A stretch of 64,000 nt of DNA. Source: Paramarasmius palmivorus (taxonomy: Eukaryota; Basidiomycota; Agaricomycetes; Agaricales; Marasmiaceae). Shown here in pieces: positions 6,394 through 60,043 of this stretch. The DNA lies in NCBI GenBank assembly GCA_037176845.1, contig JAYKXP010000012.1, positions 831,988 to 895,987 of the forward strand. The letters run 5' to 3'. Made by a program: the position numbers and the translations under genes. Every line of letters starts with the position of its first letter. The stretch's first letter is position 1. The notes beneath the pieces were generated by a model. It saw only the letters and a program-made list of their open reading frames with translations. It was not told the DNA's origin and made no database searches.

Positions 6394-6398
6394 GATTG

Positions 6399-35770: not shown

Positions 35771-36044
35771 AGCGCTAAGCTCAAGATTGACGACGGCATC
35801 TCAACGTTCCAAGAAATTCGAACAGAAGAGGCTGCAATGGGACTGGGATGGGAGAAGAGAACAAGGACGAGGACGAGTAGGAGTACTCGTGTTGTTCCCG
35901 GATCACCAGTTCGTTATCTCTCATCAATGGTTCTGGGTTTACTTGTTCATATAGCTGGAGGAATTGTCCTTTGGGTCGAGTAGGAAGATTGTCGACATAC
36001 CATTTCAGATATTGGCGGATATAGAGCATTTATGAAAGCTGTTG

Positions 36045-36305
36045 AGTGACGTGTTGATTTTGGGGTGCTCACTGAATTCTGGCTGTGTTAACAGTGAGAA
36101 TAGAAGCGTTCTCAGCTGTCATATATGAGAACGTTGCATGCGTCCGAAATCCTTGTGGCTGCTCTCTCACTTGAACCCCCATCATCCCCTACTTCCACTT
36201 CCACTTCCTTTCCATCCACAATCCATTTTACTCGATTGCAGCCGCCCTTTCTTTCAGGAGCTTTCACTACGTCCGTGCTCTTCCTCGTCTTTGCTGCATC
36301 CAACG
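36045..36305 (+). promoter_or_regulatory. Conserved upstream region of copy B
   Basis: Counterpart of 18431-18690 on the opposite strand. It carries the complement of the shared block (TTCCATCCACAATCCATTTT) roughly 80-100 bases before the start codon and TTGGGGTGCTCACTGAATTC at the far end. No TATA box could be assigned with confidence. Confidence 0.5.
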
Positions 36306-39300: not shown

Positions 39301-39747
39301 AAGGGGTTAGGTTTTGCATATCAGGTGGGATTTGAGGCCTGCGATAATTGGGATGTCCAAGCTAAAGGAGATTACATTCAATTGTGGGATACAGGAAGAG
39401 CCCTGGTGTTGTTTTATGCCCCAAGTGCAGGAGAGGTCACTATTATGTTATCTGTGCATAACAGATATGATGAGCCAATTGAGCTAGAGGCAACTCTAAA
39501 GTCAGATCTGGATGGGAGACCAGTTACAAAGACACAGGAAGTCTCTGCTGGTAAAAAAGAAAGGAAGAATGAGCAGGACAATGTTGTCTTTGTGTTTTCT
39601 GTGCAGGAGGGTGTTGAAGAGATTACAATCCAAGCCTATTGGCAGTATAAATGGGAGATCCATGGACTTGTAAAGGTCCAATGGAAGAGTAGGGATGAGG
39701 TAGAGCAAGGAGTGGAAAGTGGATTGGAGGACAGAGGGGGAGAGTAG
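36306..39747 (+). CDS. Large multi-pass membrane protein, copy B (1112 aa)
   Basis: Three exons, 36306-36800, 36851-36970 and 37024-39747, join in phase 0 across introns of 50 and 53 nt (GTATGT..CAG and GTATGT..TAG). Residues 1-205 form a soluble N-terminus (start MSDTPENIGTT, later GGQWLDDAGF). Exon 3 opens with hydrophobic spans at about 211-232, 245-266, 335-363 and 374-391, then a hydrophilic domain of about 700 residues with coiled-coil-like stretches. Near the C-terminus a Cys/His segment (CHKPGEACEEPHC) could bind a metal. I recognise the architecture as an uncharacterised family common in agaricomycetes; its function is unknown. The inverted copy A conserves exon lengths and the Cys/His segment. 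An upstream in-frame ATG at 36138 exists, but the start at 36306 is the one conserved in copy A. Confidence 0.85.
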
Positions 39748-40071
39748 GCATCTTGTGAATACTGTGGTGATGGAAGGTCAAGGTGTTAACAAGATCACAA
39801 ATAGTTTATTTTGCCACATGAAATATATAGAAAGATGATACATGGCATTGTTCTGAGATAGCAGTATATATTAGACATATGAAATAAGACTAAAATCCAG
39901 AATACTTATATGATCAAAACATAGGCTCTTCTTCTACAACATATTCACTTGCCAGAGCTCCACACAAGTACACCCATGGATTACTCATACCCATATTCAC
40001 AGATATTTGGGTGACAGAAGGTCATATCTGTATCCGTGTATACTTATCTCACAGATACAGATGTGCAGATA
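39748..40071. other. No gene seen (324 bp)
   Basis: A/T-rich 3' flank of the copy B gene, followed by the target site of the gypsy element. Confidence 0.5.
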
Positions 40072-40076
40072 TTTAC

Positions 40077-40521
40077 TGTGATGGAGCGTAGCTTTTTCCT
40101 TTCATTTCTCTAAGTCCCCTTATCTATTTTCTTATCTTCATCTTATCATTTTCCACTTATATCGCGTACAGCCTCTCATCCACCGGAACATTCCACATCA
40201 TTCTTCCATTGTTCTACATCTTTCCGTATCATTCTGATTGTTTACTTGTACAATTCTCGCTGAGACAGACTCTTCACATATAAACCATAGCTGTAGATGC
40301 CTAGTTCCCCATCTTGACCTCTTGGTCATTTGGGCTAGGCAAGTCATCTTGTATTTTATTCCTTTAGTTATGCTAACTTGGTCATTTGAGCTAGTATCTG
40401 ACTTGTGTCTGCCTGCTCAACGTCATATAGAGCCTTGTGCCTACGCCGGATCACCCCCTTTTCTCTTATCATCATCGCTCAGCACCGCTATCCGTAGAGA
40501 GGTAGTTGGTTTGCCCTCACA
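40077..40521 (+). repeat. 5' LTR of the gypsy element
   Basis: 445 bp, starting TGTGATGGAG and ending GCCCTCACA. Differs from the 3' LTR at seven positions that I could see, all transitions. Confidence 0.95.
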
Positions 40522-40790
40522 TTAGGTCAAGATCTCATTGAACACCATTGACCTGGTAGCGTCAACCTCGTTCAAGGTACACCCTGGCAGACACAGCAAC
40601 CATTACACCCCCACCCCCTTTTGACTGTTCCTCCTGCACACACTCCTATAACACTGATAACCAATGTGACAACCATCTCCACGACGACGACTACTGGTGG
40701 AACTGTGACACCAGCCCCTGCCCAAACCGACTGCACAATCCATTAGACTGGGCCGACGACATCTACAAAGACCCCCGCTTATTTCCTGCC

Positions 40791-42005
40791 ATGTCTGATA
40801 ACGCTCCTCCTGCACAATCCCAGAACAAGACCCTGCTGCAAGCACTGCTTGTCAGCCAAAAGGCACTCACTGACTTGATGGCCGTGCTCACCACCCAGAT
40901 GTCATCCAAAGCAGACCAGCGAAGCTGCTCCGAAAAGCCAGCAGTGTTCGCAGGAGATGGAGACAGCGCTGACACTCACCGATTCCTCGCGGCATTCTCA
41001 GTTTATGGATGGAACTCTAAGAGGGAGATGAACATCCAGGATGCAGATGGACAGTACTACCGCAACGACCGGGTGTGGATTAGTACAGCGCTGTCATTCA
41101 TGACAAAGGACACAGCTCTCTGGGCCACTCCTTACATGGAGGAGTACTCGTTGGGAAGGCCCATATTTGGTGACAACTGGGCCATGTTCGAGGCAGCTTT
41201 CAAGCTCTGCTTTGAGAGCGTAGACGAGAAGGAGGATGCCAAGCACCGCCTCAAGGCTCTCCATCAGGACAAGATGACGGTGGCAGAGTACACAGCCAAG
41301 TTCAAGGAGCTCATGGGACGCACCGGCTACTCCACAGAGGACCTCTGTGACCGGTTCTACGATAACCTCAGTCGTGCATTCCGCGACAAGTTGGTCCTTG
41401 CCATTGGAAGGAGCACCAAAACCTTCGACGAGTTGGTTCAGACATCAATCGAGGTCGACAACCACTTCCGTCAGTATGACGCTGAAAAGTGTTTGGAAGC
41501 ACAAGCTTGACCCCAAGGCCCATGACCCTTCTGGAGCAACCGCCAACTCCCCAATCCCCCACGTACCTTGCCCTTTCCTGCCGCTGCGCCAGCACCAACA
41601 TTTCCAACACGTGACCCCAATGCCATGGACATTGACGCTAATCGTACCTGTGCAGACTGGCTTCGCCTGATGAATGGCAAGTGCTTTGGCTGTGGTTCGA
41701 CAGAGCACCGGCAACGTGATGGGGGCCATGAAAGGGAGATTTGCAACTGGTGCCGCAGAAATGGACACCGGGAAGCAGTCTGTTTCAATAAGTGGCTGGG
41801 AAGGCCTCGTGGAACGAGTGGACAACGTGTTGCCGCCACTGAAACACCTGCCACTGAACAGGCGCTACCAACTCCACCTGCCGCAGCCCCAACAACCCCA
41901 ACTCCAGCTCGGACCACACCACCAACGGGTCTGGACGCTCTCATTGCGCAAATGGAGCAGCTCCAGATGCAAATCGCTACCATCCGTGCCGAGCAGCGTT
42001 TTTAG
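40791..42005 (+). pseudogene. Gypsy gag with two nonsense codons
   Basis: The capsid region (about 40920-41490) has the Ty3-type pattern, with FAGDGDSADTHRFLAAF early and a C-terminal helix-rich part. A Cys/His region follows at about 41680-41790 (CFGCGSTEH and CNWCRRNGHREAVC, the second a CCHC knuckle). The start is the first ATG after the leader. Two TGA codons, 41508-41510 and 41523-41525, break the frame; both fit CGA to TGA changes, after which the same frame continues to a TAG at 42003-42005. That last stop is probably the natural gag terminus, because pol continues in the -1 frame from there. Confidence 0.9.
41996..42005 (+). other. Candidate -1 frameshift site at the gag/pol junction
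   Basis: Gag ends CGT TTT TAG on a run of five T residues. Pol is open in the -1 frame across this point (GCG TTT TTA GAA GGG) and continues into the protease once the MITE is removed. A Phe tRNA on TTT can re-pair after slipping back one base. Ty3/gypsy elements often use a programmed shift here; in this case it is inferred from frame geometry only. Confidence 0.5.
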
Positions 42006-44998
42006 AAGGGGTGCCTCCTAAGGCTACGAGAGTCACACCCCCAAATACATCTTTTATCTCCGTCTCGCCGTCGTCGTATGATTCTGTTTCATCATGTACA
42101 ATATCTATCCCAGTTGTCGACAAAAATGAAAACTATTTTCACATACAGTGTATTACGGCTCCTTTACACACGGTGGTTCCTTTACACAGAATTTTATCCT
42201 GACCCTGTTTCTTTGTATTGTTGCTGGAAAAAAATCAAGTACATTGATTTAATGACTAGCTTGAGCTTGCAATTTTTTTCGAGAGAAACTGAGCACATCG
42301 AGGGGGTACAAAAATCGCATCCTTGTCGGTGAGACAAATTTGGGTTTGTGTGAACTTTGCGTGATTTTATGCAGCTCGTTTATATCATCTTATGAGCTCC
42401 AAAAAATTGTAGCATACTCTAGCAATCACTAGCTTTGGGATAAGCTAAAAATCAAGGGAAAAGGTCAGGAATTGACAGAGGTATAAATCATTTTGTTTTG
42501 AGCGTGACAGGTGCTTGCGCTTAACCATTTCCCACCATCTTTCACAGGCGGCGAGATAGTGTGAGTCACAGCTGTCACACGGCGTGTAAAGGAACCATTT
42601 TGCGTGACATTTCTACCCTCTTCAAATTTTGACGTCTCATATATCATCTACTTGTTCTAGGTCCACAAAAAAAAATGAGAAGGCTCTCAAGATGATTCAT
42701 AGTAAGCCTACGCAACAATTTTGGGATAATATTTAAGTTTGAGCTCATAATGAAAGAATTACAACTAGGTGTGTAAAGGAGCCGTAATACACTGTACGCG
42801 CGCGCTTGAAAGGACACAATCGAGAAAAGGATGTAGTAGCCATGATCGACAGTGGAGCTACTGGGCTGTTCATTGGGAAGAGATGGGTGGAGGAGCAACG
42901 TGTTGAAAGATACTGTCTGCGAAGGCAGATTTCACTCTACAATATCGACAGTAGTCAGAATCGTGCAGGGAGTATCGAGGAGTTTGCTAGATTGAGGATG
43001 AAGATTGGAGAGCATGAGGAGGAAGTAGAGTTGTTGATCACTGACCTAGGCCCTGAAGACGTAGTGCTAGGGCTGCCTTGGCTGAGAAAGGTGAACCCTG
43101 CCATTGACTGGGCTAAAGGTGTGATGAAAATCAAAATAGAGGAGGAGCAGGAAGAAGAGGCCCAGACAGAGGAGACAGAGCGGTGGGAGCAGATCAGAGG
43201 CAACAGAAGACAGCGTAGGCAGTGGCAGAAAGATGGTGTATTGGAGCATGCAAGCGACGAACTGTGGGTGGCAGCAGGAGTGACGTACGCAGCAGAGCTG
43301 GCATTTGAGGAGTCGAAAAGGAAGGAGAAGAAGAGCATGGAGGAGATCATGCCTGAGGAGTACCACCAATACCGCAAGGTGTTTTCGGAGGAAGAATCCC
43401 ATCGACTACCTGAGCACAAACCCTGGGACCACACCATTGACCTCAAACCCGATGCTCCAGAGACTATCCGATCCAAAGTATACCCCATGTCGGTCAACGA
43501 GCAGACCGAGTTGGATGCATTTCTGGAGGAAAACCTGCGCAAAGGATACATAGTTCCATCCAAGTCACCCCTCGCCTCTCCAGTCTTCTTTGTCAAGAAG
43601 AAGGATGGGAAACTTCGGTTCGTACAGGACTACCGCAAGCTCAATGAATTCACCGTCAAGAATCGATACCCCCTTCCTTTAGCTACCGACATCATCAACC
43701 GCCTGAAAGGTGCCAAGTACTTCACCAAGCTGGATGTTCGGTGGGGATACAACAACGTGCGCATCAAGGAAGGAGACGAGTGGAAGGCAGCATTCACCAC
43801 CAGTCGAGGACTGTTCGAACCACAAGTCATGTTCTTTGGCCTCACCAATTCTCCAGCAACATTCCAGGCCCTCATGAACTCCATCTTCGCAGACCTCATT
43901 GCCAAGGGCAAGGTAGCAGTATACCTGGATGACATCCTCATCTACAGTGCGACCATGGAGGAGCATCGTGCCACGACCCACAAAGTGCTGAAAAGACTTC
44001 AGGAGTATGACCTCTACCTTCGGCCAGAGAAGTGTGAATTCGACCAACAGCAGGTGGAATATCTCGGTATGGTAATATGGGAAGGCCAGGTCACCATGGA
44101 CCCAGTCAAAGTATGAGCAGTCAAAGAGTGGAGCACACCCCGCAACCTTTGTGAGCTTCGTGGATTCATCGGCTTTGCCAACTTCTACTGACGTTTCATC
44201 AAAGACTTCTCCAAGATTGCTCGACCCCTGCACGACCTCACCAAGAAAGAGCAACGGTGGGACTGGGGAAGGCGACATCAGGAAGCCTTTGATACCCTGA
44301 AGAAGGCTTTCACTGAGGAGCCAATACTGGTGATGTGGGATCCGGAACGGCCAATCCGAGTGGAAGTGGACGCCTCAGGCTACGCTACTGGCAGAGTTAT
44401 CCTTCAACAGCAGGATGATGGATTATGGCACCCAGTGGCATATCAATCAGAGAGCATGGCACCAGCTGAGAGGAACTACGAGATCTACGACCAAGAGATG
44501 TTAGCAATCATCCGAGCCCTTGAAGACTGGCGCCACTACTTGGAAGGACTTCCTCAGTCATTTGAGATAATCACCGACCACCGAAACCTGGAGTACTGGA
44601 GGACAGCTCAGGACCTGACTCGTCATCAAGCCCGATGGGCACTTTGGCTGTCACGGTTTGACTTCCGTCTGACACACAAACCTGGCAAAACGAACACTCA
44701 GGCAGACCCCCTGTCGTGAATCTCAGAGCTGCAGGTGTTGGATGCTGAGGACAATCGTGAGCAGGTAGTTCTGAAGCCAGAGATGTTTGCGAAGATTGGA
44801 GCTGCGCGAGTAGGAGGAGATGCCCTAGAGGAAAGAATACGCAGGGGAGTAGAGAGAGAAGCAGAGGTACTGCAGGCAGTAGAGGCGCTGGAGAAGGACG
44901 GGGCGAGGAAGTTGGCCAACAGTCTAGTGGAGTGGGAAGAAGACGACGGCCTGGTGTACTATAAGGGGAAGCTGTACATTCCGGCAGATGAAGGTTTG
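42006..44998 (+). pseudogene. Gypsy pol, protease to RNase H (broken)
   Basis: The protein region holds a protease (DSGATG near 42848), reverse transcriptase (LRFVQDYRKLN near 43612, FFGLTNSP near 43833, YLDD near 43921) and RNase H (EVDASG near 44360, ITDHRNLEYW near 44572). The frame is interrupted by the MITE at 42146-42794, which adds 651 bp with its target duplication and so keeps phase but brings stops. Three TGA codons (44114-44116, 44189-44191, 44717-44719) stand where arginine is expected, for example in NFY*RFIKDF and DPLS*I. Coding runs up to the KDZ insertion point and resumes at 58615. Confidence 0.92.
42146..42794. mobile_element. MITE, TA-flanked, 26-bp perfect terminal repeats
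   Basis: The element starts CAGTGTATTACGGC and ends with the exact complement; the terminal repeat is perfect over 26 bp. It is flanked by TA on both sides (42144-42145 and 42795-42796), as in Tc1/mariner-type insertions. A second inverted pair, TGGTTCCTTTACAC, lies inside (about 42174 and about 42577). It has no coding capacity. When it is removed, the pol frame reads through. Confidence 0.9.
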
Positions 44999-45070
44999 CA
45001 GCCTTAGAGGCTCCAGCAAGGCATGAGAGATGTTAATATCCAATCCAATTCCATGTGTCTCAGAGGGCAC
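44999..45070 (+). repeat. Left terminal inverted repeat of the KDZ element
   Basis: Imperfect match over about 65 bp to the complement of 58550-58614, with shared blocks AGAGGC, AGATGTTAAT and CATGTGTCTC. Confidence 0.8.
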
Positions 45071-45345
45071 TTACCAATGCCCAATAAGGGAAATGTAAGC
45101 CTGCGGACAGTGTGTAACAGCCAATTGCAACAACCAAAAAGCCAGTTGGGGGATTGAACACATACACAGGATTTAACACCTTTAATTCAGGTGATCAAAC
45201 CACTATACTAAGGAACTATGTTATAGTTAAGTTATATCTACGCTATTGCTACAAGATTCAATAAAAATAACAATACAATAAATGCCAGACAAAAAATACA
45301 TGAATAACACACTAACAATATCAGGGGAATAATGAAATCAGACTC
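45071..45345. other. Left subterminal region of the KDZ element, tRNA-like remnant
   Basis: Non-coding. Minus-strand bases around 45150-45215 contain a box A-like TATAGTGGTT, a perfect CACCT..AGGTG stem around a 7-base loop, and a box B-like GTTCAATCCC. The loop lacks the conserved U33 and the T-stem does not pair, so this is at most a tRNA-derived remnant. Confidence 0.3.
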
Positions 45346-48300
45346 CTACCATCCATGAACATCAGGATCCCTGTCTTTCTCACCTTCCTCACTCTCATCT
45401 CCGTCTACTCCGAGAGGGGAATCATCTGACAGGTCCGTGTTCTCACCGTTTCCACCATCCACATCATCCAAATCGTCCTCATAATCATCAACTTCCTCAT
45501 CCGGCATATCCGTGTGATCCTGATCCTCTGAGCACTCGATTTCCTCCACCTTTTCCAGTGGCATCTGCCATTCCAACTGGAACCTTGCTTTCAGGGATCG
45601 TTGTACAGACGCCTGCGACAGCGCATATGCTGTATATCCTTCGCGTTCAGTGCTCCGTAAGTCGAAATCGATTTCTGTGCACTCCTCCCACTGGATAGCC
45701 CGCCACTCCAAAAACGCCAGCGTGCGGCGCATCTCTTCTTGCACCAACGCAACCTCCTCAATGGCCCGCCTTGCACGTGCCCGACTCTTACACCACTCTA
45801 CTCGCAGAATCTCGTTCTCATTCTCGTCGGCTCCATCTTCAATATCAATCTTCCCACCAGCTGTCCAAATCCACGATAGGTCTTTGCGCGTCTCTCCAGT
45901 TCCATGCTTGCTCCGGTGTTCCCACTGCTGTCGATCAGGGGGAATGAGGTCTAGATCTCCGAGAGTTGTTTCTTCATTCTCCCATTCCTCCTCCTCCTCT
46001 TCCTCCTCCTGTCCCTCGTCTTTGTCTTTCTCCTCTCTAGCCACAATTTCCCTGAAAATCCGGAGCCGCTCTACTTCTCCCTGATCGTCCTCGTCGTTGC
46101 CTTTCTGTCCTGGACCGACTTTCAGTGAAGCAGGATCGCGATAACTTCTGATGTCTTCGCTTCTGAGGGGCCGCAGAACCATCTCCCAATCTCCTGGGCC
46201 CATGAGCTTGAGGTATGCACTGCGTGCCACCCTGTAGCGAGAGGCATACCACTTAGCACGACGTACGACGCGATTGATGATTTCCCGTGATTTCCCAGAC
46301 GCTCGCTGACCGCGTACGTTCCTGTTCTTGAACAGCACCATTCTTGTCTTGACCCGTAGCGTATGACGCACGCCATGCAGTGAGTTGAAGCATCTAGCAC
46401 GCTGAAGCTGGCCTTCCACTCGACGTAACCCAGACACGCACAGTCTATCGATGAGGTCTTCGGGCAGTTCCGACGGTAGCCACAATTTGACAGATTCTGG
46501 GTCCGAATCCATGGTGTCCTCGCTCTGGGCTGTGTCCGTGAGATGCTGCAACAAGCCAGGCATGTAAATCGGTTGAAGATCTTGATATGCTCGCAGCCTT
46601 CGACGCACGGCGTTGCGTTGATCCGTCAGTTTGCGAGACTGTCTGACCGTCTGCTCCCGCTTCTGCTCGTCCTTCAACTGCTTGAGTTTATCCCTATGAA
46701 TTGAACCAGAAACGAGGTTAGAATAAGCCGCAGGGGACGAGGGATAGTGACGTACTGCAAATCTCGAATTCCTAGACCCATGACGATGAAACCGGCCGCG
46801 CTGACAGAGTGATATTGGGTGCCACCCTGCTGGAGACGCTTTTCTTCCTCTAACGACAATTCTTGTAGTGCTTGTTCTTCACTAACAACTGCATGAACGA
46901 ATGTGTGAGCTCCTTCAGATAGAACTTTGACCACCGGTACTCACACTCCTCCTCAATATGATACGGGTTCGGTACGTTCTTCCTTGGATAGGCAGCTGCT
47001 TCCCAGTCCCTGCACATTTTATCCCACTTATCCGTTAGCTCCAGCGGTAGGTTCGAAGTTAGCGCCTCATGGGCAACGACCTGTAGGTCGCGATCCTTGA
47101 TTGCATCTTTACGTCTTCGAGCCAGAGCTTTCCCTGATATTCACATCAGCATCTCCAAGATCCTTAATACCAAGCCCAGGACTTACCCATCGTGATATAC
47201 TTGTCCCAGTTCCAGCCATTCGCATGCGAGTCGATAGTATCCTCTCTTGCGCCAGGCCCCATTGTCTTGGTTGTGTTCCCAAGGTTGTTGTGTTCTCCCC
47301 ATACCCTCTCCATACCCTCTCCATCAGTGTACCCACTGCCCTCTATCAAGTTGAGGTTGTATTGCTGGTGATCGCCTCCCTGCTTGTGCCCAGGTTCGTG
47401 CAGTTTACCTATAGCAGGTGTAACCTTCATGAAACTCGGAGATGGGAATACTATCTCCTCCGGCCAGCCAAGAACCCGACGATAAAGGTGTACGAACCAT
47501 TGACAGGCAATATCGTACACCAAGATAGCTTTCACCAACAAGAGAAAGCTGCGCATCGCAACACCGAGGATGTAGTCCATATTACGATATCTACGAACAG
47601 TCCGGCATTAGCTCGTGCTATATAAAAAGTTATATAATGACCTACCGTTCGCCCTTATGCAGATTCCCAAGCTTCGCGAACATGTCGGTATGGCCACAGC
47701 ACACACCTCCAACCCCCGTATATCGAAGTCCCTTGGAGAATTTGGTGTTTTGTTTGGCTAGAGCCGCTAGCGGGACACACGTTGTGATCTGGCCATTTGT
47801 CAGTAGTCCGCTTGAATTCTAGAAACAAAGCAGTCACCTCGTCGCCTTCTGGGTCCTGCAAGACATAGGTTTCATATTCTTTGCGTTTAACGAACAATCC
47901 CAGACCGTTATTCAATGACGGATCTCGAGAGTGCGACGATACCATTTGCTCCTTCAGCCTGAAATTCGCGTCCATGCACAAACACAGCTGATAGAGGAAG
48001 CTACAGACTTTTCAGCATACTGTTCGCATGGTAATGGCAAATTACTTACATTGCTCCTGCCCGCTCCCAGTTGTCTGGAAGGTTAATGCCTGGACGCGGA
48101 CATGAAGGACATTGGACAACGAGACGGCCTTCTTTCGATCGTTGATTCTCAACATCACCCTCGATACCTTCAATTCCATCGGGATCATGACCTGCGCCAC
48201 TCCAGATCACCATTTTCAGATGTCGCCACTGGCGAATCATCAACAACAAAGGCCAATAACGAGTCTTGGGTACCTTCATGCCAGTACCATCAGATAACTT

Positions 48301-49288
48301 CTCCAGAGCATGATAGAAATTGTGGGTCGACCCCTTCGTGGTGAAGGACATCTTGTGCAGAGCTTCCATGTAAGCGAATGTCGCACATGTAGTGATCCTT
48401 CCTTCCGTCGCTGTAGCTGGATATAGACCCCGTCTCATGAGTTGCTGGTAGTGCGGAATTTTGTTCGGACAGCCGCAGAACAATATATTGACCTGGTGTA
48501 TCCCATTTGTATGCAAGATTCGAAGTTTTGAGTGACATTGCACGGGTATAGGGCAAACGAAACCGGTATGATTCAACTGGAAGCATGAACCAAGTTTCCG
48601 CAGCGACATCGTAACAAAAAACGTGCCATTCCACTCCTAGAACTAATAAGCCAACGGTCAAACCTCCGTATAGTGAAAACAGCCACACCTCGATATGGTG
48701 AAAAGGAAGTCTACGATGCCTTCGGACACAGCATGGTGCACACACCAATTCTCCACCAAAGCAGTCCACACATCGATAACGAGGTTCTTGATATTCGCTT
48801 TCATCCTCAGACATAGAATGCTGCCCTCGACAGTCCGGACAGAGCTCCCGTTTTCGGGAATCGCCACGACCTTTGGCGCGTAACAGCTCTCGGACAAAGA
48901 GGTCCCGGTAATGTGTTTTCCAGTAGATATTGGGACGTTTCTGAATGCACCAAGTCAGTAATGTTGATAGCTAGGATTGTATGGCATGCACCGCACGCAT
49001 TGTTTTCCGTTTTCTCTTTTTACCAGCGGCGAGGTTTCCGGTCTGGGTTGAATCCAACGCGCCTTTATCCCAGAGACCATCCCATTCCCCGTCGTATAAT
49101 GCTTCCCCTCCATCCTGCATCCCTTGTAAAGCACTGTTAGCTCCGTCTTCATCCACCCAACTCCACTCATCCGTGCGATCCCAGTCTGAGCGACCCTTCC
49201 CAGGCGAGTAATTCAACACTCGGACGCTCCCATCCGAACGAACGCGCTCTTCTCGAGAAGGTATGATGCCTAGATCGAAATCGTCCAA
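45346..49288 (-). CDS. KDZ-family transposase (multi-exon)
   Basis: Open stretches chain across short introns: about 49288-48975 (acidic/aromatic N-terminus), 48900-48700 (CxC2-like cysteine cluster: RCVDCFGG, CAPCCVRRH, then HHIEVW), 48600-48050, 47980-47655 (MDANFRLK near the start, DPSLNNGLG), 47625-47164 (YDIACQW and DGEGMERVWGEHNN), about 46930-46755 (HSVSAAGFIVMGLGI) and 46677-45346. The last contains LRVEWCKSRARARR and FLEWRA, typical of KDZ C-termini, and an acidic tail. These blocks are the KDZ transposase signature; the enzyme should excise and insert the element. The start is unclear: no ATG is in frame before the first block and a TGA lies at 49304-49306. Apart from that I saw no break. 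Confidence 0.9.
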
Positions 49289-49306
49289 AGTTTCGATGCA
49301 CTCTCA

Positions 49307-50254
49307 ATATACTCGACCCGTGTTATTGCGTTGGCGACCCATGTTGGCGGTCAAGGCTGGTCAAGGGGAGTGACTGTAACTTGAGTCACAAGGTGTTACC
49401 TGTGACATTTTTTCATCTTGATATCTAACCACTATGAAGCGCCTTTTCCGTGAGTATGTTTTCATTTCTCCTAGCCTTCTGTACTTATTCCTACATCAGA
49501 TTACATCTTGACATGAATTCCACATGCTCAAGTATCCTCTACTGTATGTTGAATACCTTCTCGCGCAGCCTTCGGTACTTATGCCCGCATCCTGCCAGCA
49601 TCATCTTCAATCCCCTTTCTTACCATGAAAAGGTACTTGGTTCAGATACTGGGACTCACAGAACCTGATTTTTGGATTTTATTTTTAGCCTTTGCCGGTC
49701 AGGACTGCTTTCGCTATCGGGACTGCGATCCCACATTCAACGCTTCGAGACAGGTAGTGGATAGCGCCAAGAGGAGGAATAGAACGGCTTGAATGGGCAG
49801 GATGGGCTGAGATCAAGGTGAGTAAAGTTTTTGGCATCGAGACGTACAGAGGAAGGGAGCCTGGCGGATGTAAGGCTGTCTTGGCGACACTATCGTCTTG
49901 GGAACACCATCATTGCCCCCGTCTCGTCGCGTCTCATCTGTCACCGAACTCCTACTGATTCAACGACATCTTACAGATTTCTTCCGTTGATCACGAACAC
50001 ATAGGTCAAAATTTCCCTCAACCTTTTTTGTAGTCTATAACATTTCCATCGACCTCTCCTTCAAGTCTATAACTAGCGGTACCATCATACCAGTTACGTA
50101 GCATTGTTAATCTGATACTTCTGTCTGCCGTTTCCATTTCTCTTGTGCGAACCTCAATTGCCCCAACCAGTACTCTCTGTCCGAACCAATGAGCATTCTC
50201 TTGGTGTATCCAGCAGCCATTCCAACGAGTCTGCCCCTCTCAGTCAGCTTTCTG
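49307..50254. other. Upstream region between transposase and cargo, no gene called
   Basis: No convincing coding sequence. A minus-strand frame reaching from 50304 down to 50107 (with YWLGQLRFAQEKWKRQT) looks protein-like and may be a 3' exon of the small gene at 50255-50520. Confidence 0.4.
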
Positions 50255-50520
50255 CTAGCAAATCCAACAACAAACCCACATCTTGTACACTTGCCGAGCG
50301 TCATTCACGTCACCGTGGTCTATTCGCTGATGGAGCTGCTCTACGAGCAACGCATCGGATACAGTCCTACCTGCGTAGGACGCGTCCCACGTGTCCCAGC
50401 TCCTGATGAGAAAGTCAGTGCCGATGAGTCGGATGATCCACCAGACTCGAGTTCTTACTGGGCTATCTGCGCCTGCATAGTGCGGGTAATTCTGCGCTTG
50501 TGAAAGTCTTCCGAATACAT
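50255..50520 (-). CDS. Small Trp-rich KDZ cargo gene, 3' end uncertain
   Basis: Minus-strand exons join in phase through two introns (GTAAGA..CAG near 50459-50401, GTAGGA..TAG near 50368-50341). They give MYSEDFHKRRITRTMQAQIA and then SWDTWDASYAEQLHQRI, ending at a TAG at 50255-50257 or continuing through a GTTTGT donor into the frame at 50107-50250. It is a short charged protein with a likely helix and has no assigned family. It sits next to the basic-region gene and on the same strand. Coding potential is judged only from phase-consistent splicing. Confidence 0.45.
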
Positions 50521-50631
50521 ATGTACTGAGTACTGAATGGCTAGTTGGTCAGCGAGCGACAACCCAGAGGAAACCCGTATATATATTTGTCGAACGGTAA
50601 ATACATGGACTGTCGAGGTAAACGCTCGGAT

Positions 50632-51455
50632 TTACTCGGGCAAAGGTGCCTGCCCATCGATGTAAACACGATTTTCCGGATTCTGGAATATCAGCCTGCC
50701 TTCGGAGTAGCATTGCTCCAGAGATTGGTCAGGGTCCAGAACACGATACTCCATGTCGTCGCAACACCGGACAAGAAGTCGTATGCGTCGGGCGAATTGT
50801 TGGCCTCGCTGCCAATCCCCCTTTGCCCCATAAATATTGATCACCTTCTGGCACAGATCCTCGGATGAGTGTAGGAAAGAGAGAAATTTGGTTGCAGCTT
50901 CGTCCAGGGGGCATTTGCTCGAGGGAGCCGAAGAGGATATCCTTTGCTGATAGTTGTGATAGACACGATCGAGGTACCGGTACGCAGAGCTTCCAGTCCA
51001 TCGATCCAGGGCCGTTTGTAAGTTCACTAGCTGCCAGCGTAGGTCACTAGCGTTGGAGAAAATTGGCATTGCGACCTTCAATGATATAGAGTAGGAACGT
51101 ACTCTTTATGTTCATGTAGCTTGCAGTATTCCATTTCGCGTTGGTTTGCTGCTCTCCAGCGGGCATCTCGAGTTCCCTTCCGCTCGACAATCCTGTCCGA
51201 CACTGAGAACTGAACTGGACACCTCGAATGCCACAAAACCTACTCTGCCATCTCTGCTTCTCTCTTCTTCCTCGCTCGCTCCAAACGCATGTGTTCCTTG
51301 GCTCGACATTTGACCGCCTCGCGATTCCTAAAAATTAGTCCAGCAGTTGTTTCTCGCAATGGATTGGATGCTTACTTGAGGTAGTAGCGTGCAGACTTAG
51401 CACGATTGGCTCGAACTTTGTCCTCTTTCGTTTTATGCTTCTTGAGCCGGGGCAT
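50632..51455 (-). CDS. Basic-region/coiled-coil protein, 222 aa, KDZ cargo
   Basis: Four exons, 51376-51455, 51244-51327, 51103-51192 and 50632-51046, join in one frame (669 nt including stop). The N-terminus is very basic, with a pattern like a bZIP DNA-contact region (KVRANRAKSARYYLKNREA, then KEHMRLERARKKREAE). A 150-residue helical-looking part follows, with YGAKGDWQRGQQFARRIRLL. The basic stretch suggests nucleic acid binding, perhaps a regulator of the transposon. No leucine heptads are clear, so bZIP is not claimed. The start is the only ATG before the basic region. The open frame at 50632-51081 starts within what I read as the last intron; the exon 4 acceptor (CGCTAG) is chosen because it alone keeps phase. 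Confidence 0.65.
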
Positions 51456-52232
51456 GGGGCGTCAAAGAGGCAGGTGGAGAACAGAAAATATCTCGGCGTC
51501 TATCCAGTGCTTGATCCCCAGGCTTGATCAGGCGCCCATGACTTGCGGGTTGGTCCTCAGCTCAGTGCTCAACGGTCTGTCCAGACGTTCAATTGGTACA
51601 ACGAAATGTTACTGCTATTGGAGTGACCTTGTTTTGACCTAGCCTTTCAGTATTCGGTGCGATTTCCCGAGAGTCACTGTCACTCCTCACGCCCAGGAGG
51701 TTCGCGCTAGAAAAACACTGTGCCGACCCCTTCCAAAGCATCTGTTTCTTACCTTTTCAATTAGGAAGATTTTCAAGTATCCTATAGAATTGGTATCGGT
51801 GAGCATTTTCCCCAGGTACCAGTAGAAAATCTATGCAAATACGCCCTCAGCACCAGAAATATCCTGTGCATACGCGCTGATGTCAGACCAAGTAGACATC
51901 AATTCCACTTCCATTAGCTTCATTAGCAACGAATCAGTTCTAGTACATCAATTCAATCTCTATCAGTATCAATTCCAAGTTCGAACCATTCCGTTTAGGA
52001 TCAGTCGGCCAACACTTTTGACTTCACATAAGGGTATGTATCACAGTTGCTACATCTATCTCTACGCTACTTGGTGTTCATGTTCTCGCCAGAATTGGTC
52101 TGCTTCCTCCTTGGACGAAGCCACCATGATGTTTTCATTAGTAAGCCTCTCAAAATTGGCCAGTCCGATGGCGTGCATCAACGACAGTCTTCAAGAGAGC
52201 ATTGAGTTTGAGTGCCGATTTCAACAAATCAC
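51456..52232. other. No gene seen (777 bp)
   Basis: Intergenic within the KDZ element. The minus-strand region at 52150-52232 may be a 3' untranslated part or a further exon of the next gene. Confidence 0.4.
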
Positions 52233-53177
52233 TTACCGCTGGTGAATTCCCGGGATATCTCCAATTAGAAGAACGAACCACTCTTGACTGGGATTCCACG
52301 GGGTGCTGAGAGTTCCTGCCAGACCACTTTTGACGCAAGCATCGTACGCGGACTTGGCTTGGGTGTAATAGTCGAAGGAGCGGTGCATTGGATTCGAGAC
52401 TCCACTAATGAGGTTATTAGCCTCTGCCCTGTAGGACCATGTGAGAGACTAGTAACACAGATGGACACATACGTACCAATTAGTGAAGACACCATGTTGT
52501 CCATCGCGACCGGCAATGACCATATGACCCCCAGCACGCCTATTCCTTCTCCTGAGGGGAGACGCAGTTGCAGCGGGAGAGCTCGAAACGGTGCGGGAGC
52601 CTCGAGGAGTTGCTGGAATGGCATTGACTGGGGTGAGCTGTGGCACAGTCGCGTCCTCCTCTGACAAAGTCAGAACATGTCCTCCATTAGGGGACAACGG
52701 CGCTGAACGTATCAGTTCATCGATATCGGTGTCAGTTTCCATTTCACTGAAGGAGGAAGAACGTGAGAGAGTCGATGTCGATTTGCAGCACTTTGGACAG
52801 GTACTGGGAGCAGGAACGGGGGCAGTTGAGGCACGAGCTTGAAGTGTTGCTAGGGCTATATTAGAAACTCATGAGAGGTCTGATAGATGATAACGTGCCG
52901 TACCTAAGACTTCCCGGAGCGTATGAGCGGCCTTTTCGGCGGCTGAGATCGATTCCTCGATGCTAGAGTGGTGAGCGTTTGTTGTTTCCCCTACTTGCCG
53001 AAGAAGATCTCTAGCCGAGTCGCCGAGGGATCCCATTGACTCGATAAACTGGAACTGGCGGGTTCTGGCTTGTTCGAGGGCTAAATGAATATCTGGCAAG
53101 CCGTTGTAGTCAGCATTCAAGGCATGAAAAAATTGCAAATCACTCACTATTGAGCTCATTTTGAAGAACTGTCCCAT
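52233..53177 (-). CDS. RNase H1 N-terminal-like domain protein, 282 aa, KDZ cargo
   Basis: Exons 53177-52904, 52855-52477 and 52428-52233 join in phase across two 48-nt introns. The N-terminal 90 residues look helical (FIESMGSLGDSARDLL). A CPKCCKS pair and an acidic, Ser/Pro-rich linker follow. The C-terminus carries MVIAGRDGQHGVFTNW, then WAEANNLISGV and SFDYYTQAKSAYDACVKSG. This is the layout of the RNase H1 N-terminal/viroplasmin-like domain (Gly-rich V/IFT.W strand, xVxG strand, YxxFxxxxEA helix), which binds RNA:DNA hybrids in eukaryotic RNase H1. No RNase H catalytic domain is present. The intron assignment decides the domain, since TTG GCA spliced as TG|G GCA gives the conserved Trp. 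N-terminal alternative: a GTGAGT donor at 53150 could remove part of exon 1. Confidence 0.7.
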
Positions 53178-53543
53178 CTATCTGATTGAGTCAGTGAAAG
53201 ACCTCAAGGAAAACTCGTTGTGCCGCACCGGGTTCCTCGTCTGCAAGACTAGGTTGAGGAATTCGCATTTGAGAGACACGGTGATGGTGGTGGTTGGAAG
53301 AAGATGTTGCTACGGTGAATTGGAAAAACTGTCGCACATTCCCCGTGCGACTTCCATAGGCTGTTATCTGATGGCGGGTTTGAGGTTGAAGCGGCGGGTT
53401 TGAGACTGAAGCAGATCATGGTGTCGGTCAAAGACGCGTCTTGCTTAGATAACACACTCATTTTGGGAATTGAAACGATCAGCTTTTTTTGGCCTTTTAT
53501 GGAAACCGAGAAGAAAATTGTACATCGGAGTATCTACCTATTT
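53178..53543. other. No gene seen (366 bp) between the two cargo genes
   Basis: Holds the promoter side of the 52233-53177 gene and the 3' side of the next one. A 22-base imperfect repeat (GGCGGGTTTGAGRYTGAAGC) occurs twice near 53373-53412. Confidence 0.5.
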
Positions 53544-54301
53544 TCACTCAGAATCGGAATCACTGATCATAACTACATTGGAGGCAGGGACCGTAATAGT
53601 GCCATTGGCCCAAACCTCTCCTTCCAACGGATAGGCCACAGATGGCGGGTTGATGGTGGCGAGTTCCCATCCAGGCTTCGCACCGGAATAGGCGCGAGTG
53701 TACTCTGCGAGTGCCTCCTCCCACATTTTATATCCCTTGCTGAGGCAGTTGGGGACGCCAGATACTCGAGGGACAACCTCGCTGATGCTGGGAGAGGCTG
53801 TGAGTGACAATAAGAAGGGAAGTGATTGAGATAGACTTACGCGTCATAAAAGATGCCCACCTCACACCCTCGGAAGATAGTGTAAAACTTCCCCTGGTGA
53901 CGTTCCATTCCAGGGCGCAGTTCGAGTTCTGAGGGGTGTGGGATTACGCTGGAGTAGTTGCTGGTGGATGCAGGGGGAGCAGGAAGAGCCGGCGCGGTAG
54001 GTACATCTTCCCAGCTGATGGTGTTGGGTACACCAGCAACGTTGTTGTCACTGTTAGAGGAGTTGGCTGCAACACCCTCGACAGAGCCGGTGAGCCCGTC
54101 CCTTTCGATCCTGACGGTAGTGGTAATCGTCCAGCCTATCATGCAAATCAGTGGAATACCATATGAAGGCCTGATAAGTTCTTACCGGGAAGTTTTTCTA
54201 TGACCTCGCGAATGATTACTACGCATCATGTTAGCCTATTGTCATACAGAAAGTAAGGGAGGCGTACTGTGGTCCTGGGATACATGCTCTGGGCTTGCCA
54301 T
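53544..54301 (-). CDS. Second RNase H1 N-terminal-like protein, 201 aa, KDZ cargo
   Basis: Four exons, 54268-54301, 54186-54218, 53841-54135 and 53544-53787, give one frame of 606 nt with stop. Introns are 49, 50 and 53 nt. After an N-terminus with WTITTTVRIER and an Asn/Pro-rich linker, residues near 105-165 read GKFYTIFRGCEVGIFYDA, then VVPRVSGVPNCLSKGY and WEEALAEY. The G-x-F strand, VSGV strand and K-Y/W-EEALAEY helix match the RNase H1 N-terminal-like domain seen in the neighbour, with different flanks. No catalytic RNase H domain follows. The CCCAG acceptor at 53788 is chosen because the nearer CACAG shifts the frame. Two such genes side by side suggest duplication of a hybrid-binding module. 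Confidence 0.7.
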
Positions 54302-55020
54302 GATGGTGGTACAGAGGTAAGGAGCGAATGCGGTATTCTGATTCGGCAGAAAGTGACTCTGCAAGGAGATGATTTGGGAGCACTGAACATCTTTGAGCCT
54401 TATCGCGTGTAATCGGCCGTAAGATTCGGAACCAAGATGTCTGGCTGCTTCACAAGGGCGCGGTGCTCTGGAAATCCATAGTACCTGATTGGACGCCAGG
54501 AACGTCGGAAATCGGCCGGACGAGGTGTTGGGTAAGCCTGTGGTAAGTACCGTATGGCTGTCAAGGGGGAAACAGATTTGCCCTAACGCGTTGCTGTTGA
54601 GATGTTCTTGTCATTGGGTTTTGCCAACGGTGGGGCGGAGCATTCACTCAACATGAGGCCTGTTGAGATGTCAGACATTGCGTTTGAGGGTGACGATCTC
54701 CTGGAATAAGGATATTACCGTTGGGTGCGGGTGCGAAGACGACTGGCGGTAGTCAGCGTACAACCTGGAAATGCAGGCGCTAGAGTTGAATATTGGTAAT
54801 TGCTGAGTCGAGACGGCCGAGTAGGGACAAATTTGGCGGATTTAGATTGTCTGGCAGGAGCAGTTTGAGATTGGGTGTTAAAAGGCGAAGGAAATTGGCA
54901 AGTACCTTTTCCGAAACCTTCTGTCCCTGCTCAGCCAAAAAGGTACATCGAACTTGGCCTGTTTTCTCTTGTGAAAACGTCCTCACTTCTCCCTTTTTCC
55001 TTCCTAGGTCACCTCTCGTC
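54302..55020. other. Divergent intergenic region (719 bp)
   Basis: Separates the minus-strand cargo from the plus-strand gene at 55021. A CTAG acceptor-like site at 55004-55008 and an open frame upstream (from 54793) leave room for an earlier exon of that gene. Otherwise nothing is recognisable. Confidence 0.4.
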
Positions 55021-58000
55021 ATGCCCAATCCTGGTGTTTTCCATGGGGCTCAGCTCCGCTTGTTGGAGATGCGGCTCCCGGGGTACTTTGCTGCTGCTTG
55101 GGAAGGCTGGGGTGTGGATTATATTTCCCAAGTTCAGCGGGACTTCTTCAAGGTCTTCAAGCCTGGCACACCCGATAACTTCGATCCAACCAACGAAGAG
55201 ATGCTTGCAGCCATCGAGGCTGAAGCTGAAGAGTCGGATGAGCTGCTCGTGGAGCCTGTTCGCGAAAGGAGTCCCAGAGCCAGGAAGACTTTCAGCGTGA
55301 GTTGGAAGAGTTCAAGAAGCTGAGATCGTTGATAGGAACTAAATGTTCGGTACGTCACAAGTCACTGTGATGTGTGACTCTCATGACTCATTCTCAACCT
55401 CATGCCATGCCCAGCAAATGGATCGTTGGTTTCCCTATCGTTTTCGCAAAAGCCAGGAGGCTAATATGAAGGAGTCGGATGTCTATCGTCGACTCCTGAG
55501 TAAGCTCACTGGCATGGATGTTAGTGCTGGGCGACGTCGACCTCCTTACGTTCTATGGGCTCGTGAAAACGCTGGATTGGTAGAAGAGCTGGTTCGCGAG
55601 CGAATGAAGTTGAAACATCTGAAAGGTATGGGTTTTTCTGCGATGATGTTGGGGTTACTGACCAACTGTTCCCCTAATTCCTAGATGAAGATGCCCTGCG
55701 CCGTGGAGTCGTGGATTCAGCTTTCACGAAGCTACCAGCCGAGGAACAGATAGCCTGGGTTAAAGAAGCTCAAAAAGAGTTCGCAAAAGAAAGCCAGGAT
55801 GGATTTCTTGGTGCTCAGCGGTCGCCTCAAATGATGTGGGCGGTCCAAAATTCTCCAGTGGTAGATCAGTTGGTTGGCGCGGCTGTAGCTGAGAAGCAGG
55901 CTGTTCTGAAGTTCGAAAAAAAAGGTGCATCTTCCATTTGTGTCGATTTGAGTGTTTGTTTCTAAATTTCTTTGACAGGAGAAGATGCCTATGTTGCTAT
56001 TCGTCAGGACGTCGTTAGGCGAGAGTACGAGAAGCTGGCAGATAGCGTTAAACAATCTTGGGTCAAGAAGGCAAAGGAGGAACAAGAAGAACGTGTCAAA
56101 AAGATCAAGAAGGAGAAGAATGCACCATTCCCCACTGACCCGGAATCTCGTCAAAAGTATGTGCAAGCTTTGGAACCTTTGTTAGAACAGTTAGCTCCTT
56201 TCGTTTTCCGGTCGTTTATTGACCAGTAGTGGTATATCATGTAACTGGCTCTGTTTTTTCCTCAATAAAGCTTTTATCTCATGTTTCTTGAATCTGGTTG
56301 TGGTGCCTTTACTGACTCTCGCCATAGATCTATTGAACGCATCAGTCCATTCGTGACACCTATTCTGCAAGGCATGGCAGAGGCTACCGGTTGGAATTTC
56401 ACTCTGGTCGCTGGAGGACCCGAACCTGCGGATGGTGGACGTTTAAATATGACGGCGTAAGTGTGAAGTGTGTCTCGCTCGTTTCTTGTTATTAATCAAA
56501 CTGTCCAAGCATTCACATTGGGACCACTGTGGGGGCGGTACCTTTGACGTTTGGAGCGGCGTTCCGTCCCCAAATCAAGCAGCTCTTCAATCCTTTGTTT
56601 GCGAAATTCCTGAACCAATCGTTCTGTAAGTCAACTTGTCTCGGGAGTAGCTGTAATACTAACATTCTCCAGCTGTGGCCGAGTGCCAACGCAGGGCTTT
56701 AAAGTCACGGTCGATGCCGTGTCTTAGTGACTTGCTCGATGATTCATCGGATGTGGTCATTCACGAGCGCGTAGACGATCAAGAAGGCAACAACGTTCCT
56801 CAGGCCTCGACATCCAAGGTCTCAGTGGCTACGACTTCATCAAAGTCAGCAGCGGAGACCACCGATTCATCGACGCTATCGACCCCTGCCTCTCCTCCTC
56901 CAAGACCTCCTCATGCACGTATGAGGCCACCCTGTGGACCTCCACGCTTGGTATCAACCCTGCTGGCTGGTAGCAACGCCGTGCCTACTCTGAATGGACG
57001 TCGGCCTGCCGGTATAGGGAATGTCGAAGTACCGAATGCTCGCAGTGATCACCGGGCACAACCATCAAGGCTGCAGGTTAGCTCGCAACGGCTGATTGAC
57101 AGAACTCTCACTACTCTGTCTCCAACATCATCCACTCATTCTTCACCAGTATTAGCACCGCAGTATGCTTTCCACACCCCGCCATCTCCGTCATCTGCAG
57201 CTTCTTCTCCACCACCAGCATCGTCTCAGCATTCATCACCACCTCCAGCATCTCCAGCGTCCTCGGCACCTCCTGCTTCACCACCTCCAGCTTCATCACC
57301 ACCACCAGAGCTTGGTCCGGCCTCGGCTCCTAGTCCTCGCACATACAAGACCAAGAAGCGTACAGCTGCCTCGACACCTTCATCCTCAACTACCGCAAAG
57401 AGAGCTGGCGTCGCCTCTAGCAAACGTCAAGTGTTGGTCGGGGTGGTGTTACCTGTGAAGCGAACCGCTACCACTACGGATTCTAGAGAGCGGAAAAGGG
57501 CCAAACAGGACAAGGGGACTGATGAACAAGTGGTCGAGGTGTTTGAAGCTGAGGCTTCTACTAGCACCGGTGAGCGTCATTCAGGGACGTCAAAGAAGGC
57601 GGGCAAGCGTGCAGCGGAGGCATCAATCGATGCGGAGAGGGCTTCTACATCAGCCTCGAAACGACGCAAAACTGATAACACGTCTGCTGACCCAGTACCC
57701 GAGCATGTTCCCCATATGGTCAGCACTCCCGCCAACGCTCCCAAATACGTCCAGCACACGCTCTCTATCTGCCACGAGGTGCAAATGGATCGTGGTCTCC
57801 GCGATGTGGTCCAACTCTGGCTTCAGCTCGACGTCAAAGCCGGCTTTGTGGGTTCCCGATTGTGCTCGACTAATCGCCCGCGTGTTGTGCACGACTGGAT
57901 CGCACGCGCACGCGCCCCAGGCTTCAAGCCAAAGGTGGACAACTTGGACAAATATGCAGAGGATTTCGAAGCCTGGTATAAGGTGTGTTGCCCGTGGCGT

Positions 58001-58249
58001 AAGGATTGTGGACAGGGTATCAGGTTGACTAGGGAGAATGGGCAGGATTGGAGTGACTTGGCAGTATATGGTCCCAATGGGATTGTGAGCTTTGTAGTGG
58101 CATTGGCATGGTGGAAGAAGGCCGTACAGAGGCTTCCCTTTGGGACTCCCAGGCAGCGCCAAGAGAAGGAGGCGAAGAACGGCCTGTATCGCGCTGCGTT
58201 GGCCAAGATTGAGTATTCTTTTCGTTGTTTGAGGGATGGCGGTTCTTGA
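55021..58249 (+). CDS. Large uncharacterised KDZ cargo protein (probable frameshift)
   Basis: Exons 55021-55349, 55415-55625, 55685-55924, 55979-56156, 56327-56456, 56510-56625 and 56673-58249 connect phase-consistently from exon 2 on. The N-terminus (PGVFHGAQLRLLEMRLPGYF) is followed by a Lys/Glu-rich part with KQSWVKKAKEEQEERVKKIK and FTLVAGGPEP. The last exon adds a Pro/Ser-rich linker, Lys/Arg clusters (nuclear-localisation-like) and a C-terminal domain with KAGFVGSRLCS, VVHDWIARARAPGFKP and a Trp-rich end. I know similar architectures as uncharacterised agaricomycete proteins; the middle is vaguely HMG-like. Exon 1 changes frame between about 55240 and 55280, so either a short intron is missed or the gene carries a frameshift. 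The function is unknown; the basic regions suggest DNA or RNA binding. Confidence 0.65.
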
Positions 58250-58549
58250 AGGATAGGTAGATGATTACAGGACGTTTTTCCCTTGTTTAATAGGTTTTTG
58301 GTCCTGTATTTTAAATTGGCGGGCAGTAGTTATTAGGCAGCTAATCAAATGTGAAGGCCATATGGGATATATTGCTACGTAGGTAATATATGATCACTTG
58401 GCTCAGTTGTTAATGTGTCCGAATTATTAGTCGGATGATGTAAGCTGCTGTGTCGCTAGTTCAATTCTCGCTGTTGTCGGTATAATTTTAGCTGTACACT
58501 GGCAGTATTGCTACTTTAGCCCGCTTCAGCTTAACTGGCAACATGCGCT
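58250..58549. other. Right subterminal region of the KDZ element
   Basis: Non-coding, A/T-rich sequence between the last cargo gene and the right terminal repeat. Confidence 0.5.
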
Positions 58550-58614
58550 GGAGACACATGAAATTGAACTGGCAATTAACATCTATTGATGTGTGGCAGG
58601 TGCCTCTTCAGGTG
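58550..58614 (-). repeat. Right terminal inverted repeat of the KDZ element
   Basis: Partner of 44999-45070. It ends GGTG directly before the repeated AGGTTTG of the gypsy integrase frame. Confidence 0.8.
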
Positions 58615-60043
58615 AGGTTTGAGGAAGGAAATCCTAAAGCAGTGCCATGATGCGTCTACAGCGGGGCACCTGGGAAAACACGGGACACTAGAACAGGTGA
58701 AACGTTACTACTGGTGGCCTAACATGTCCTCTTTCATAGAGAAGTATGTTCAAGGGTGTGAGCGCTGCCAACGCACCAAACCAGCTGTTCATCCTGACGC
58801 AACACTCCAACCCATGGAAGTGCCAGAAGAACCTTGGTGTGTAGTAGGAGTTGACCTTATCACAGGACTCCCCCTCAGCAATGGTTACGATGCCATCATC
58901 ACCTACATCGACCTGTACAGCAAGCAAGTCCACATTCTCCCCACCACCACTACCCTTGATGCCAAAGGAGTCGCTGACCTTCATTACCGGGAGATCTTCC
59001 GTCTGCATGGGATTCCCCACAAGTTCGTATCTGACCGAGGCCCACAATTTGCAGCACAAGTAACCCGAGCTCTGTACAAGCAACTAGGACTACAGCCAGG
59101 ACTAACTACTGCCTACCACCCCGCTGCCAATGGCCAGACCAAAAGAGCCAACCAAGAGGTGGAACGGTTCTTACGCCTATTCGTGGATAAGCGTCAGGAC
59201 GACTGGTCAGACTGGCTCCCAACAGCAGAGTTTGTACTAAACTCCCGAGTCCACACAGCACACGACCGTAGTCCATTCGAAGTCATGTACGGCTACACAC
59301 CTGACTTCACCATCCCAGTAGGACGCCCAACCCGATTCCCAGCATTGAACACCTGGCTAGAGAAACTAAGGGAGGTGCGCAAAGAGGCAGAAGCAGCATT
59401 GTGCATGGGCAAGGAGCAGATGAAAGAGACATACAAGGCAGGAAAGAAGAAGGCACATGTGTTTGAAGTAGGAGACAAGGCGTGGCTGTCAGCAAAAGAC
59501 ATCAGAATCCACCAGGCAAGCCAGAAGCTGGGACCATGGCAACTAGGACCCTACGAAGTCATTGAAAAGGTTGGCAAACTGGACTACCGGCTTAAACTTC
59601 CTCCGGCCATGAAGGTACACAATGTCTTCCACGTCAACCGGCTCTCACCCTGGAAGGGCAATGATGTCAATGGATTACGACCACCACCACCTGAAGCAGT
59701 AGAAGTAGAAGGAGAAGAGGAGTTTGAGGTCGAGCAGATTCTGGACAGCAGGATATACCGAAGGGGGTTGCAGTATTTGGTGCGATGGGAAGGCTTTGGA
59801 GAGGAAGATGACAGTTGGGAACCAGCAGCCAACGTCAAGAATGCAGGTGAGAAGATAGCAGAATTCCACCAAAAGCATCCCAATGCGCCAAAGAAGATAG
59901 CAGCAGCCGTCTTCAGCTCACTACCCTGGCGCAAACTGGAAAATCTGACTGAAGGACAGTCCACGGATCTAGAATGGGAGGAGGGACGGATTGCAGGTTC
60001 TAGCCTATCGCGGACGATAGGCATTAGGAGGGGGGTAATGTGA
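58615..60043 (+). pseudogene. Gypsy integrase and chromodomain, catalytic Glu lost
   Basis: Continues the pol frame after the KDZ insertion; the first gypsy codons are GGT TTG AGG. Features are an HHCC zinc region (CHDASTAGHLGKHG, CERCQRTK), the integrase core with Asp in GVDLITGLP and in VSDRGPQF, a GPY-like region (LGPWQLGPYEVIEKVG near 59550) and a C-terminal chromodomain near 59725-59870 (EVEQILDSR, YLVRWEGF, DDSWEPAANV). The chromodomain targets new copies to chromatin marks in this clade. The third catalytic residue is changed: codon 59141-59143 reads AAA (Lys) in NGQTKRANQE, where the family has Glu. Translation from the marked TTG at 58619 is an artefact of the insertion junction. Confidence 0.92.
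60026..60038 (+). other. Polypurine tract of the gypsy element
   Basis: G-rich purine run directly before the 3' LTR and overlapping the end of the integrase frame, the expected site for plus-strand priming. Confidence 0.8.

Follow-up and report, generated by a model that had tools for sequence, protein, structure and literature searches.

Two neighbouring genes, here named A and B, were analysed in a 64,000-nucleotide stretch of Paramarasmius palmivorus DNA (contig JAYKXP010000012.1, positions 831,988 to 895,987; hereafter the window). Both belong, as accessory genes, to the regular make-up of a multi-gene KDZ transposon whose ends are Kyakuja-like. Each encodes a protein that is free of catalysis and built around a hybrid-binding-type domain, as judged from profile matches for both proteins and from a predicted fold for B. 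Both proteins have been kept by selection as the element multiplied, and hence the element probably needs them. As a tentative reading of the sequences, A and B may bind RNA-containing duplexes arising from the transcripts of the element, and may in this way protect it from silencing or assist its transposase.

Limits and ends of the element

The main features are the following:

44999..58614, no strand: whole KDZ element with Kyakuja-like ends, 13,616 bp (13.6 kb), ends common to the C193, C31 and C253 copies, pol reading frame restored
44992..44998, no strand: target-site duplication AGGTTTG, left copy
58615..58621, no strand: target-site duplication AGGTTTG, right copy
47209..47993, minus strand: KDZ transposase core (PF18758), 89.1 bits, matched as three pieces in three frames
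48280..48603, minus strand: CxC2 cysteine cluster (PF18803) of the transposase, 105.9 bits
52062..53268, minus strand: gene A, with a predicted long helix, a linker, an RNase H1 N-terminal-like domain and a conserved C-terminal extension
53544..54301, minus strand: gene B, with an RNase H1 N-terminal-like domain (exons 3-4) and the acidic C-terminal tail VVMISDSDSE

The element carries the KDZ transposase that marks the KDZ superfamily. Its ends were set by aligning the window with four related loci. The left end reads CAGCCTTAGAG at 44999 and the right end TTCAGGTG at 58614 (terminal letters CTTCAGGTG); the terminal dinucleotides are CA..TG, with the exact 7-bp duplication AGGTTTG on either side. 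A search for ends in the window alone, based on inverted repeats and 8-bp duplications, missed the right end, because the scans ended at 57500. The element is nested in a Ty3/gypsy pol gene, whose joined flanks restore the reading frame (DEGL followed by RKEIL). The host gypsy retrotransposon spans about 43800-60040, and its integrase part ends, by eye, in a chromodomain-like stretch.

The C193 copy occupies positions 31439-44480 and is flanked by CAGCCTG on both sides. An exact 7-bp duplication was present in two of the copies with both ends found (window and C193); no matching duplication was seen in the third of these, C31, and only one end of the C253 copy was found. At about 6394-7017 the window contains a repeat whose C193 copy holds the sister-element insertion, the window copy being the empty site (near 6447-6457).

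At 8 bp inside each end of the window element begins an imperfect inverted repeat of about 57 bp; in the window and C193 copies together the repeats measure about 57-65 bp. Their local scores were 47 (window) and 55 (C193), against a maximum of 27 each among 200 shuffles, whereas the C31 repeats were weaker (28 against a shuffle maximum of 27). A first view of the element as devoid of inverted repeats was consequently rejected. Given these repeats, the label Kyakuja-like is drawn from the ends and the duplication only.

Copies and gene order in the genome

Exons of the transposase and of B, A, D and E served as queries against the genome, and the matches were clustered; all counts are lower bounds (for E, 53 of 108 matches were used). 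Genes D and E are located as follows:

50632..51081, minus strand: gene D, open reading frame (ORF) of 149 amino acids, kept in other copies
55021..58249, plus strand: gene E, multi-exon, divergent, head-to-head with B

At least 32 B loci were found, the window's own included. The most constant partner of B was gene E, which lies within 15 kb of 31 of these 32 loci and head-to-head with B in 30. A KDZ exon occurs within 15 kb of 26 B loci and is missing from the other six. The nearest such exon was downstream on the same strand at 17 loci, downstream on the opposite strand at four, upstream on the same strand at three and upstream on the opposite strand at two, so that its place or strand was unexpected at nine. 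Gene A accompanies 13 of the 32 B loci (downstream on the same strand in 12) and gene D 15 (six on the same strand, nine on the opposite one). Five loci, C12 (the window), C204, C193, C253 and C31, have the order E/B-A-D-transposase in common, with near-constant distances of 1.31-1.41 kb from B to A, 2.87-2.94 kb from B to D and 6.02-6.43 kb from B to the KDZ exon. Other loci have A about 2.5 kb ahead of the transposase, or carry D in inverted orientation. A and B were also annotated independently as neighbours under the NCBI locus tags 018619/018620 and 017843/017844.

As a control for repeat clustering, close and distant KDZ exons were compared. B lies within 15 kb of 21 of the 34 close KDZ exons (19 of them with B upstream on the same strand), against 10 of the 107 distant ones (one upstream on the same strand). 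A reading made earlier from the letters of the window (the sequence-only reading) had assigned both genes to a DNA transposon and proposed looking for them in other KDZ elements. The survey, made within this genome, found B at those 21 exons, and the assignment is borne out by the ends, the 7-bp duplications and the gene order conserved in other copies.

Two shortened copies, L042 (C175:54001-64000) and L043 (C217:31501-41500), have one deletion in common, equivalent to window positions 47512-54574, which takes out B, A, C, D and part of the transposase. On the E side both share 98.8% identity with the window, and their short leftover transposase pieces are 99.4% (C175) and 94.8% (C217) identical. 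The likeness of C217 continues into the gypsy flank, which indicates a duplicate of the same insertion; that of C175 stops exactly at the element end, and the sequence here seems to represent the shortened form at another site. At C110:67422-70011, E and B stand head-to-head and the KDZ-side end motif lies about 0.9 kb past B. This is perhaps a shortened element with E and B but without a transposase.

The steady linkage of B to one transposase clade would also fit a role of A and B on DNA during transposition itself and without any part in silencing, for instance on nicked intermediates or R-loops at the ends of the element. We consider this unlikely; copies lacking B, A, D and part of the transposase have been duplicated or moved recently, possibly helped in trans or otherwise.

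Selection on genes A and B

Synonymous (pS) and nonsynonymous (pN) differences per site were compared between copies. For the domain exon of A (five copies, 63-64 codons) pS was 0.73-0.97 and pN 0.03-0.19. The last exon of B (six loci) gave values of 0.58-0.95 and 0.14-0.34, and its N-terminal exon 0.65-0.90 and 0.11-0.40, respectively. Synonymous divergence (dS) was often beyond estimation, but the direction, pS above pN, is plain. Silent sites have thus largely turned over between copies while the proteins were conserved, which is purifying selection and identifies A and B as genes of the element rather than passengers.

Transposons do capture genes, one example being capE of the Helitron HELPO1.3 of Pleurotus ostreatus, a PF01693 gene described as captured (PMC4289320), and the window copy of A has an in-frame TGA. 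Both points would suit a chance-captured pair of passenger genes in decay. Nevertheless, that explanation is very improbable and has been largely refuted by the amino acids conserved at high synonymous divergence and by the order conserved in divergent copies. The word cargo, applied to A and B by the sequence-only reading, proved too weak for long-standing element genes under such selection.

Gene models

The two minus-strand genes with GT-AG introns were correctly placed from the letters alone, and the models match the NCBI proteins VNI00_004658 (B) and VNI00_004657 (A). Gene B has introns at 54267-54219, 54185-54136 and 53840-53788, all plausible GT-AG introns, and equals VNI00_004658 (P0001) from WTITTTV onward, the initial residues being different. 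Gene A has introns at 53147-53093 (if used), 52903-52856, 52476-52429 and 52236-52189, the second and third of which agree with VNI00_004657 (P0007). The acceptor at 52429 restores the domain; acceptors at 52405, 52424 and 52425 were rejected because they broke the frame or lost the domain.

For gene A the sequence-only reading was right in location, but missed a last exon of about 41 residues and the in-frame TGA near the start. This further exon (52188-52062, after intron 52236-52189) is conserved in the relatives (LSLMHAIGLANFERLT...). The start that resembles those of the relatives is at 53268, with the TGA downstream at 53193-53191, in a region that seems open in the relatives. The NCBI model bypasses the TGA by a 21-nt gap, a length that we judge insufficient for an ordinary intron. 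In the window, A may therefore have a damaged N-terminus or a start further downstream.

An RNase H1 N-terminal-like domain in A and B

The presence of this domain in both proteins, as proposed earlier, is supported by profile comparisons. PF01693 matched window A with 30.5 bits (cut-off 21; E 4e-7), and all four A proteins found passed the cut-off. The same check placed window B, with 18.5 bits, under the cut-off; among the 15 B-family proteins, 10 passed, four scored 18.4-20.0 and P0013 gave no match. Aligned with hhalign, the A and B profiles match across 54 columns (81.6%), and a UniRef name beginning Ribonuclease H1 N-terminal is already attached to 9 of the 15 B and to all four A proteins. 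No catalytic RNase H family was matched by A or B in the Pfam profile search, in agreement with the sequence-only reading.

Structure prediction, also suggested by that reading, was informative for B only. The B model has a compact b-b-a-b-a fold which matches the human hybrid-binding domain (HBD) across 49 residues. The A model, built from a four-sequence alignment, had a mean predicted local distance difference test score (pLDDT) of 47.6 and gave no convincing structural match; its long helix (pLDDT 76-88) is probably a coiled coil. In a protein search of limited reach, the only B relative outside P. palmivorus was a partial protein of Moniliophthora perniciosa (P0003), and no A relative was found outside P. 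palmivorus.

A genome search by PF01693 alone recovered two exons, both on C5, probably because introns split the 44-residue domain. One of them (L001, C5:1159245) has the domain with W + KK followed, by eye, by an RNase H-like catalytic stretch, and is probably the host RNase H1. The other (L002, C5:1180556) is a second RNase H1 N-terminal domain with W + KK.

In the HBD of human RNase H1, the changes W43A or KK59/60AA disrupt hybrid binding (PMC10639055). The W43-equivalent tryptophan is kept in all four A proteins. In the 15 B proteins the position is W in two, F, Y or H in seven and A, P, L or V in six (the residue of P0013 adjoins an insertion). The first contact lysine position is K or R in 19/19 A and B proteins, and the second is G, V, A or S in 19/19. 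The complete W + KK set was found in none of them, whereas the apparent host RNase H1, by eye, has it; by sequence the transposon proteins are hence a variant of their own. The stretch at the RNA-binding loop is as long as in the yeast domain.

Several observations weigh against duplex binding: the loss of W in 13/15 B proteins and of the second lysine throughout, the acidic character of the whole A and B proteins, the poor A model, and the similar domain of ANKLE2, described as HBD-like with an altered RNA-binding loop and as not binding hybrids (PMC13179284). The charge of the domain itself (-1 in window A, 0 in window B) was dropped as an argument, because that of the apparent host RNase H1 is 0 too.

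It is therefore quite possible that the fold was kept for binding proteins, A and B serving the transposition complex as structural or adaptor subunits, or linking the element to a host protein. The never complete KK pair, the B proteins mostly without W, the acidity and the ANKLE2 precedent would all fit such a role, as would the long helix of A and the invariant extra motifs outside the domain. So would the C-termini of VVMISDSDSE or VVIISDTESE type in P0001, P0002, P0003, P0014, P0016 and P0018, which resemble a SUMO-interaction motif. The strict pattern occurred in 6/15 B tails against 0.49 expected from shuffled tails, the motif having been spotted by eye before the test. The K or R at one contact position in 19/19 proteins, the W of 4/4 A proteins and the yeast-like loop length point the other way. 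With the contact residues partly lost and ANKLE2 not binding, duplex binding is placed only slightly ahead of this close rival.

Other parts of the element

45346..46677, minus strand: ORF 3' of the KDZ core, similar DNA in sister copies, presumably the C-terminal part of the transposase
51240..51455, minus strand: gene C, encoding a small basic protein (MPRLKKHKT...), probably with one intron, known from the sequence of the window copy
54302..55020, no strand: intergenic stretch between B and E, to judge from gene order presumably a bidirectional promoter of both genes

Neither gene D nor gene E matched a Pfam family above the cut-off.

Discussion

In the preferred reading, A and B would bind RNA:DNA hybrids or double-stranded RNA (dsRNA) that arise from transcripts of the element itself. 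A, consisting of the domain, the long helix and the conserved C-terminal piece, would bind perhaps as a multimer held by its putative coiled coil, and B would bring the domain together with an acidic tail. Duplexes bound in this way may shield the element from RNA-guided host silencing; alternatively, A and B may help the transposase at transcribed DNA. A parallel is provided by the caulimoviruses, whose viroplasmin protein combines an RNase H1 N-terminal-type domain with silencing suppression. Viroplasmin (the transactivator P6) has the domain in common with A and B and was the best viral structure match of B, although a weak one, and no further similarity was seen.

A more elaborate scheme, improbable as a whole, would be a two-part R-loop system free of nuclease. 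In it, coiled-coil A would multimerise on hybrids, the C-terminal motif of B would tether these to host chromatin modified by SUMO, and the element would hold off or redirect silencing where related KDZ elements use TET/JBP.

It is for their TET/JBP genes that KDZ elements became known as possible editors of host epigenetic marks. The P. palmivorus genome yielded at least 142 clustered loci of KDZ-like exons, yet no TET/JBP domain (PF12851) was matched above the cut-off, two sub-threshold matches being located on C207. The Kyakuja elements of Laccaria bicolor are described as KDZ elements with CA..TG ends and 7-bp target-site duplications, lacking terminal inverted repeats and carrying a TET/JBP dioxygenase among their extra genes (PMC12730594). 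The present element resembles them in its transposase, ends, duplications and possession of extra genes, but has imperfect inverted repeats at both ends, and the A/B pair plus gene E in place of TET/JBP.

Compared with the N-terminal domain of RNase H1 (human 3bsu, yeast 1qhk; PF01693), the A and B domains match by profile, and that of B by predicted fold, but they are joined to no catalytic domain and differ at the contact residues given above. ANKLE2, an animal protein, likewise has an HBD-like domain without a nuclease. The Pleurotus capE is, like A and B, a PF01693 gene within a fungal DNA transposon; it is described as one such gene on a Helitron, whereas here a pair is kept in KDZ elements. 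The claim that A and B form a new system therefore stands in part: no report of the pair in KDZ elements was found among the matches listed in the literature searched, where the Helitron study was the one related report, though an earlier mention is possible, and a word search of three fungal transposon papers found no mention of RNase H, but capE is a precedent for the gene type.

Related elements in a genome without TET/JBP above the cut-off thus keep two hybrid-binding-type proteins under selection. If A and B bind hybrids or dsRNA, the element would be a DNA transposon acting on R-loops or silencing RNA, by a route already familiar from viral suppressors; otherwise A and B would provide a second example of this fold that does not bind nucleic acids. 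The many divergent natural A/B pairs offer ready test material.
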